Part shown: positions 37,401-40,400 of the stretch, one piece after another
Layout of the letters: each line of letters starts with the position of its first letter
Numbering within the stretch: the stretch's first letter is position 1
NCBI RefSeq assembly: GCF_030867145.1
Contig: NC_134443.1
Location: 2,108,001-2,172,000 of the forward strand
Direction: 5' to 3'
DNA: 64,000 nucleotides
From: Opisthocomus hoazin
Lineage: Eukaryota > Chordata > Aves > Opisthocomiformes > Opisthocomidae
Position numbers and translations under genes: made by a program
The notes under the pieces: generated by a model
Seen by the model: only the letters and a program-made list of their open reading frames with translations
Told to the model about the DNA's origin: nothing
Database searches by the model: none

Positions 37401-40400
37401 CCCCCTCCTGAGACCGCAGGCTAGGGGCAGGCAGGGGGTTTCTTAATGCTGCTACCCCTGGAGAGCATCCAGTGAATAAAGATTGACTTCCTGCACAGGT
37501 TCCTTGCAGCTGGGACATCTCCTTTCTCCCTTTTGCCCATGCAGCAAGGCACAGTCACAGCAGAAGACATGCTGGCAGGGGGCCAGGCGTCCGTAAATTC
37601 GGATAGGAAATCCACAGTGGTGACAAAAATGAACCGGGACAGCATCTCTCTCTCCTAGAAAGTTATGAAAGTCCCAGAGCACATGCTCAGGTACCCTGGC
37701 GTTCTCCAACACGCTCCCTCCATCACAAGGCCGAGTTCCTCCTTCATCCAGGCCTCCTTCGGCACTAGCCTGCACCTCCGAGAACGTCCCGCTTGGGCCC
37801 CTGGCAGCAGGAGGCACGTGTGCGACTTGGCCGTGGCTTAGCTTTACCAGGTTTGGTCCGTGACCACCGAGACCAGCCACTGATCCCGAGTTCTCAGTGC
37901 CTCGTAAGTCATCGAGGTCTGCGAGCAGGTCAGTCCAAGTGGAGGAAAAGAAGGCAGCCGGGGGCCAGTGCCTGGATCGTGACACGAGGGAGCAATTCAG
38001 ATTTTCAGAAGAGAAGGAGCAAACGTTCTAACTTGGAAATACATCAAGTGCGAAGCTTTAGCCCTGGGTAAGAACATGGCATTCGGCTCAGGGGGTGCTG
38101 GGCTGTCAGCTCTCCCGCCCCCAACTAACTCATCCAGCAGCCTTGATCTACAGTTTCCCCCGAAGCACGACTAAACTCGGTCTGTGTAACCAGGAAACAA
38201 GCCTAGCCCTGGAGGAAACCTGCACCCACGGATTCCTCTGCACAGAAAAGGCGGTGCCTGAGAGAGCTGAGCGCTGGAGACGAAACGCAAGGGAGGCAGT
38301 GGTGGAAGCAGAGAACTGACTCAGGTACTTACTCCATCTCAGCAAGCTGCGGAGAAGCGGACCGTGCAGCCAGTGAGGCTGCCTGCATCTGCTCTAGAGG
38401 CTTGTACTGGGTACCAGCTCCCGCTAAATCCTGCGTGTATTGTACTACAGGCCCTTTGCTCCTGACAGCACCTAGCAAGGAAGGGCAAAAAGCAGAGTGT
38501 CAACAGGAAAAGCCTCCACTGTCAACCAAAGTTTGTTGCACTAGCCACAGCACACTGATTCGGTCCCTGAAGGCAACCAAAACAGAGGCACTTGCAGTTA
38601 ACACGGGGTCACTGGCTGAGCTCCGAGTCACCGCCAGTCACCCCAGACAGATTCTGGCCACTTCACACCACTGCAGTCTGGTTTTGCGGCGTCTTTATGC
38701 CAGGAGACAAAGCCCACTGTAAACCTGAACCCTCCGGGAGCTCTGCTAAAAAACCCCACCAAAACCAAACAAACCCCAAGACACCCCCCCGCCCCCGCAA
38801 CCCACAACGCAGCCGTCCAAACTCCAGGGCACACAGTAAAGAAAAGGATGCCACACACCGACATTGGGACGAGTCCGTGCTTGTCCACTTTGCTTCTTCT
38901 CTTGGGTGGAGGCTGTGGAAGTTTTCATGCTGAACATGGGCTCGAGGCGCGTGGAACCCCGGTAAATCCACTCACAGCGTTTGTCATCCTGCAGCAAGGA
39001 GAAGGCAACACTCACAGCACCTATGGCAAGAGCTTCCAGAGGTACGATGCAGGCCTGGGAGACCGCGGCGCGCTGTTACGGTGGGCAGAGTCGAATGGAA
39101 AGGAGGCAAAGCATTGACCTGAAGGCTCTGGAACGACCACGCGGCCAGGAGAGGACAAAGGCAGTAATTCATCGTATCTGGGGGAACACTGAATACAAAC
39201 CAGCTCTAGAAAGAGGCCCAAAACCAAGACCCCAAACCTCGAACGCAGTTCTATTCTTAGCCCAAGCGCTGACAAACGAGGCACTGTTGGAGAAACCAGA
39301 CTCCCTCAGGAGACGAGCTAGCTCCTCAGCGCTAACCGAGCCTGCTCGAGGACAGGGAGGTTAAATTTGCCAGTGCACAACGTCTTCCCCAGCGCCAGAG
39401 GCTATGCAGTTATCTAGACAGGCAGGGAGCCAAGCGGGCACAGATAGCGTGTCTGCTCCCGTTCTGCAACGTGCAGAACCAGAGCAAGCAGCGTATCGCA
39501 GCTGCTGCTCAGCTTCTCTCCTGCTTCTCAAACCAGCACTTGCAGAAGACATGGCGAGGTGTTCACACCGAGAACGGGACCAGGAATACCTGCAGATGAT
39601 GGATTCTGTTTCTCATTCATCCACCACTTCAAAGTTTCACATGCAAAACGCTTTTAAGGGCTTTTTGAAGCTTTTGCCATGCACAGGAGAGCGCCTCACC
39701 TTCACGTCAATGCACAGCAGACACTGGCAGTCTACCTGCGAGGCAAAGCACCTGCGAGCCCCACGACCCTCTCTGACCTGAGCGAGGAAACCGGACTCGA
39801 CCCGCCCAACAGTCAGCCCCCCCAGACTGAAGCTGAAGCCCATCTTCCCCCTCTAATGGGAGAAGGGAAAGTGCCCTACCAGGAAAAGGATTTTGACCAG
39901 ACTGCCGTCCACTTCTTCCACTCTGGATTTCCACCAGGTCCCTTCCCACTCCGTTTTGATCAGCTGGCCGTTCTTCAGCAGCACCATGGGACGGTTGGGG
40001 TAGGCCGTGATGTACTCCTCGATGAAATCGCGACAGGAAACATCCTCTATGTCTTCCCAGGTCTTTTTCACTGCTCAGAAAGGGACGGAGAAAGGGAAGA
40101 AGAGGAAAGACTCTTACAAAGAGAATCTTTAATTCCTTCTTAAAGAGATTCCGGATGGATTTTTACACAAGAACACTCAAGCAGCAATCCCGAGTGGCTG
40201 GAATTTTGGTGGCAGGGCATCCAGCCATGTTAATGCACCTGGAGTGCCAAGAGTCACCGCACACTCACTCTGCCGGTAACGAACCGCTATTTCCTCCAGC
40301 TTCATCTGCAAATGTCTACAGGCACAGCGCCGGAGGGGACACGCGCTCTGTCCTGTGCCTTCTGAGCCCAGGCTCCTTCAGACACCCAAAGGCTCTCCAC

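Follow-up and report, generated by a model that had tools for sequence, protein, structure and literature searches.

An intron of SETDB1 in this bird genome holds an open frame that resembles the RING protein Hakai (CBLL1), and the question is whether this frame is an exon of SETDB1, a nested gene or the remains of one. The window, i.e. the whole stretch of 64,000 nucleotides analysed, occupies G000:C30:2108001-2172000; the assembly it belongs to comprises 1.48 Gb. That this is a bird genome is borne out by its alpha-A globin: the protein, translated by eye, has haemoglobins of cormorant, goose and ostrich among its best single-domain PDB matches, and the engineered tandem chains placed ahead of these probably owe their rank to carrying the domain twice. 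The human SETDB1 sequence maps block by block to 44335-28461 of the window; exon numbers and the name "intron 10" for the host intron follow the numbering of the original prediction. Just upstream of SETDB1 a GC-rich tandem array with periods of 10 to 124 is located at 45677-46000; the scan ended at 46000, thus the array may extend further.

The open frame and its resemblance to Hakai

The frame is characterised by the following elements:

37455..38027, minus strand: Hakai-derived open frame, 191 codons from stop to stop, without Met
37452..37454, minus strand: stop codon terminating the frame ahead of the C2H2 dimerisation module
37485..37913, minus strand: homology to Hakai residues 6-154 (tblastn), unbroken where CBLL1 has four introns
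37506..37625, minus strand: C3HC4 RING finger (Pfam PF00097) as bounded by its outermost zinc ligands (frame residues 135-174), with eight of eight ligands

Judged by sequence comparison, the resemblance of this frame to Hakai is beyond chance. Searching the PDB with phmmer returned the Hakai entries 2mq1 (E=9.9e-20) and 3vk6 (E=1.3e-19), with the next family at 6.5e-4. In a tblastn search of the window, human Hakai matched with residues 6-154 at 37913-37485 (69/151 columns identical, E=1e-34). The N-terminal similarity to Hakai that had been claimed for this locus is borne out by both searches. The RING model PF00097 gave 21.7 bits at a cut-off of 21. All eight residues which we take to be the zinc ligands of the RING (C109, C112, C125, H127, C130, C133, C145 and C148 in the numbering of the parent) are present in the alignment with the parent, as had been predicted. 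It is also correct that the C2H2 dimerisation module is absent, as the frame stops at 37454-37452 first, and that there is no start Met: the 191 codons hold not a single Met, versus eight in residues 1-171 of the bird's own CBLL1. The open frame of 170 residues described before does exist, only its length has to be corrected to 172 whole codons when counted from the acceptor at 37971.

The length of the frame alone proves nothing. Runs of at least 191 codons occurred in 73 of 2000 Markov copies of the host intron, and a second open frame on the same strand of this intron (36876-36250, minus strand) even has 209 codons, gave no Pfam match and is probably due to chance.

Origin and age of the copy

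The parent is the bird's own CBLL1, for which six coding exons were located on the minus strand of contig C8:

58355215-58355203, minus strand: CBLL1 exon E1
58352561-58352394, minus strand: CBLL1 exon E2
58352037-58351937, minus strand: CBLL1 exon E3
58351671-58351588, minus strand: CBLL1 exon E4
58350747-58350674, minus strand: CBLL1 exon E5
58350148-58349107, minus strand: CBLL1 exon E6

The copy spans the junctions E2/3, E3/4, E4/5 and E5/6, all four within residues 6-154, without any intron. The absence of these four introns indicates that it was derived from a spliced mRNA, i.e. that it is a retrocopy and not a native SETDB1 exon; as far as the alignments tell, it is an old processed copy of CBLL1/Hakai lying in the SETDB1 intron on the same strand. 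Genome searches for Hakai in the 1.48 Gb assembly gave at least three and at least four matching pieces, all of them at CBLL1 or at the copy, and no third Hakai locus was found among the best-scoring candidates, which are the only ones that such a search scores, so that the piece counts are lower bounds. In bacterial, archaeal and viral contigs no relatives were confirmed (38 and 1 pattern matches), as expected of a vertebrate gene.

At the junction E1/2 two nearly equal alignments exist. One of them, judged by eye, sets the AG at 37920-37919 at the boundary of CBLL1 intron 1 and exon 2, in the same phase, which makes a half-processed copy with intron 1 retained possible; the other, ungapped one has a CTG (37928-37926) in place of CBLL1 Met-1. 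No poly(A) tract was seen 3' of the frame down to 36800, and none of the three direct-repeat families of at least 14 bases brackets the copy as a target-site duplication; both features are likely to have eroded in a copy of such age. Neither a 5' nor a 3' flank of the parent is recognisable, since the scores were reached by 40 of 200 shuffles for the DNA upstream of the copy against the CBLL1 5' end, by 26 of 200 for the 91 bases at the copy start against the spliced 5' end, by 122 of 200 for the upstream DNA against CBLL1 intron 1 and by 33 of 200 for the downstream DNA against exon 6 and its 3' side.

When the CBLL1 residues from 155 on were compared with the three downstream frames, the sole match seldom reached by shuffles concerned the proline-rich part, and no C2H2 match was obtained:

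37116..37295, minus strand: candidate remnant of the proline-rich stretch encoded by CBLL1 exon 6, in the same frame as the copy and roughly collinear, of weak resemblance

Of 200 shuffles, 1, 105 and 11 attained the scores of the downstream protein frames 0, 1 and 2; with 1000 shuffles the numbers were 6, 839 and 520 against the bird's own CBLL1 and 68, 856 and 320 against human Hakai. The window is rich in proline-coding stretches and 244 of its 1170 tiles match or exceed the score of this element, which is therefore only suggestive; perhaps it is the decayed tail of the retrocopy.

The copy is old, judged from its divergence. In local alignments it is identical to the own CBLL1 in 66 of 167 columns and to human Hakai in 72 of 167, and the latter two share 148 of 173. 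Bird and human differ in 22 of 157 gap-free columns, of which the copy sides with human in 8, with the bird in 3 and with neither in 11. This surplus of agreement with human suggests, within a comparison of three sequences that cannot root the copy, that it split off before several of the changes in bird CBLL1. Its great age fits the scarcity of retrocopies in chicken: in the accessible part of a retrocopy survey the chicken row gives 78 retrocopies, 51 of which we read as retrogenes under incomplete column heads, and their rarity is ascribed there to CR1 (PMC3136929).

Constraint on the frame and possible routes of expression

Over 152 aligned codons, copy and own CBLL1 share 98, 102 and 62 identical bases at codon positions 1, 2 and 3 (.64,.67 and.41). 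The overall dN over these 152 codons is.48 and dS 1.75, with.24 and 1.08 for the RING and.63 and 1.97 for the N-terminal part; in the last 11 codons 3 residues are kept, and no sign of constraint is seen. In general, dS is near saturation and takes in the branch of the parent, too. If the copy had been wholly neutral, its own branch would comprise no more than some.5 substitutions per site, and by simple arithmetic CBLL1 would need more than twice as many at its silent sites in the same time. In 2000 simulated runs, ungapped and with an assumed transition and CpG bias, we let CBLL1 codons 6-154 decay neutrally until 44.7% identity (63/141 aligned residues) was reached. The frame stayed free of stops in 3 runs, all eight ligands survived in 7 and both in none, and a single run kept at least 33 of 54 residues in the RING while retaining no more than 31 of 95 in the N-terminal part. 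Frame and ligands survived jointly in 0 of 2000 runs at 60% identity and in 9 at 75%. With 33 of 54 RING residues identical, the chance of keeping eight of eight ligands is 0.013, which is not overwhelming by itself. Because third positions are the most diverged and none of the 2000 neutral runs preserved both features, the frame was probably selected at the protein level for most of its life. Past constraint, estimated here from one species and one parent over the whole past of the copy, appears well supported.

How such a frame could be read depends on the following sites in and around the host intron:

38859..38988, minus strand: SETDB1 exon preceding 38333..38471, 1-base overhang, donor G/gt at 38859
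38333..38471, minus strand: SETDB1 exon just upstream of the copy, 2-base overhang, donor GA/gt at 38333
37971..37973, minus strand: candidate acceptor ag/G, fits the 2-base overhang of the exon ending at 38333; score 2.5, rank 15 of 161 AGs
37926..37928, minus strand: CTG aligned ungapped to the CBLL1 Met-1 codon, G at -3, possible non-AUG start
37918..37920, minus strand: candidate acceptor ag/A, fits the 1-base overhang of the exon ending at 38859; score 0.3, rank 29 of 161 AGs
35683..35841, minus strand: SETDB1 exon next after the intron bearing the copy

The ancestral ATG of CBLL1 is lost and an in-frame AUG is absent. From 38331 to 37920, in the part of the intron that precedes the copy, not one donor-like site reaches a score above zero, though the same matrix gives the best donors near some SETDB1 blocks only 0.2-0.3 or values below zero. 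At a cut-off of 4 there are no ATG-donor pairs, a count that is uninformative as most SETDB1 donors here would fail this cut-off. Without in-frame AUG and upstream donor, a start would have to come from SETDB1 exons, from a distant exon or from a CUG, and the SETDB1 exons are the nearest source. Poly(A) signals 3' of the frame are ATTAAA at 36924 and 36802 and AATAAA at 36112.

The two phase-matched acceptors reported earlier were found again, with AGs at 37973-37972 and 37920-37919, donors at 38333 and 38859 and the overhangs as claimed. Both acceptors are weak. Among 19 SETDB1 blocks, the top acceptor nearby reaches 3.4 to 9.9 in 15 cases; the remaining four give -2.0 to 2.3 and may be mis-calls or truly weak sites. 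Furthermore, a random acceptor fits a given exon phase one time in three and several upstream exons are on offer, so that the fit in phase says little. The original prediction of either a SETDB1 terminal exon or a nested RING-only Hakai thus holds insofar as a Hakai-derived, RING-only frame is nested on the same strand, whereas the case for a SETDB1 exon is weakened by the low acceptor scores and the small weight of the phase fit.

The top acceptor-like site of the host intron is a different one, at 36984 (minus strand), with a score of 8.4 and in phase with the SETDB1 exon ending at 38333; it opens about 60 codons, with the ATTAAA motifs at 36924 and 36802 mentioned above. By its score, this site appears to be a better candidate for a plain alternative end of SETDB1 than the Hakai frame. 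Short SETDB1 isoforms are listed, among others, for human (397 aa; MBD, PRESET, SET and TUDOR affected) and mouse (488 aa; MBD, PRESET and SET affected) in the section available of one report (PMC1949830). As such short mammalian forms exist, an alternative SETDB1 end is thinkable, no more.

On balance we slightly favour the reading that the copy is still translated as a RING-only Hakai, be it through an alternative last exon of SETDB1 or from a transcript of its own. Among these live routes the alternative last exon, yielding a Tudor-RING short form, would be the likeliest, given a frame without AUG and an upstream stretch without donor above zero, and the complete absence of Met is in keeping with a frame read only from an upstream exon; we put this route forward as a tentative proposal. 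A stand-alone nested gene, starting at a CUG at the ancestral site or at an AUG of a first exon located further 5', seems rather unlikely. The CTG at 37928-37926, with its G at -3, takes the place of Met-1 in the ungapped alignment, but the equally good alignment made by eye sets Met-1 elsewhere, and the missing donor between 38331 and 37920 speaks against a first exon there. Likewise, one tile of 250 bases (37750-37999; GC.62, CpG o/e.68) passes loose CpG-island criteria, but it is a single one, no extended CpG island was seen around the copy, and several other tiles along SETDB1 score like it or above.

The main rival to continued translation is a retrogene that was long selected and died recently by losing its start codon, leaving a fossil frame that is still unbroken; this is a serious possibility, though short of an even chance. 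Such a course agrees with the absence of Met and the weak splice sites. Moreover, the present copy was let decay neutrally, with 0.1 indels assumed per substitution. After 0.02 substitutions per site, 599 of 2000 runs still combined absence of stops, eight of eight ligands and absence of frameshifts; at 0.05 there were 116 such runs, at 0.08 there were 21 and at 0.12 only 1 (73 of 2000 without indels). A death of the order of 0.02 to 0.05 substitutions per site is thus plausible, whereas one of 0.12 would hardly leave the frame intact, and apart from the loss of the start no damage is seen. The earlier argument that divergence with all ligands kept speaks against a dead copy holds for a copy dead on arrival. 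That the copy was dead on arrival and its frame open by luck is highly improbable: given the composition of the intron, equally long open runs are no rarity (73/2000), but in no neutral run at the observed identity were frame and ligands kept, and third codon positions have changed in excess. Even taken jointly, death on arrival and anything else remain improbable. A native SETDB1 exon that came to resemble Hakai by convergence would share the strand of SETDB1 and its phase-compatible AGs, but the similarity is collinear over Hakai residues 6-154 and includes the N-terminal part outside the RING, so this origin is practically negligible.

Possible function and comparison with known systems

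A CBLL1 mRNA was retroposed into the SETDB1 intron on the same strand, where the stop cuts off the C2H2 dimerisation module and leaves N-terminal region and RING in one frame. If the copy is translated, these parts, lacking the dimer module, may rival the full-length Hakai in binding E2 enzymes or partners like VIRMA; alternatively, the copy may act as a monomeric RING. In a fused form, the RING could be brought to chromatin by the Tudor domains of SETDB1. That a retrocopied Hakai RING was captured in birds as an alternative last exon of SETDB1, and that the Tudor-RING protein connects ubiquitin, or else the m6A writer, with H3K9 silencing, is doubtful though conceivable. In other RINGs, a basic residue directly after the last zinc ligand helps E2-ubiquitin. 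The copy has K at this position, the own Hakai N and the human one S, which by analogy may be a hint of independent activity. Structure prediction of the copy alone, from the single sequence, gave no reliable model (mean pLDDT 36.6). Dimerisation is called essential for the E3 activity of Hakai in the portion consulted of one study (PMC11749156); with half of the module missing, the copy should lose E3 activity of the Hakai type. For fly Hakai, the excerpt consulted states that the N-terminal part (residues 1-295) binds Vir and that a mutant in the RING no longer dimerises and loses its binding to partners (PMC8213727).

With its own CBLL1 the copy shares the N-terminal region, the RING and its eight ligands, collinear over residues 6-154. 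The parent, with six coding exons, continues beyond the RING into the C2H2 part of the HYB dimer module and has a long proline-rich tail; the copy contains no intron where the two match, terminates behind the RING and is devoid of Met. Measured against the Hakai family, defined by RING plus HYB, it has the C3HC4 RING with eight ligands and lacks the C2H2 part that completes the HYB dimer. We know of no description of a second long-lived Hakai in the bird lineage. Mammalian ZNF645 (CBLL2) is intronless and X-linked. This second, shorter Hakai relative forms a HYB domain according to the pages consulted (PMC11749156), of which the copy lacks half; separate origins are assumed for the two. Like the short SETDB1 isoforms of human (397 aa) and mouse (488 aa), a fusion form would lack the MBD and the catalytic half; a RING is not mentioned for these isoforms in the section available (PMC1949830). 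Among the matches listed from the open-access literature, no title or beginning of an abstract describes a Hakai copy in SETDB1.

As an mRNA-derived copy in a bird genome, it joins the avian retrogenes, a rare class with 78 retrocopies in chicken, the sole bird in the accessible part of the survey (PMC3136929). As chicken is so poor in retrocopies, one held in frame for so long would be unusual. The mechanism, retroposition, is ordinary and the outcome is not, with the fusion to SETDB1 a live but unproven option. If the frame is read from SETDB1 exons, a retrocopy would have given a chromatin silencer the ending of a ubiquitin ligase; should the frame be a fossil, it still testifies to a second Hakai that was long-lived in this lineage.
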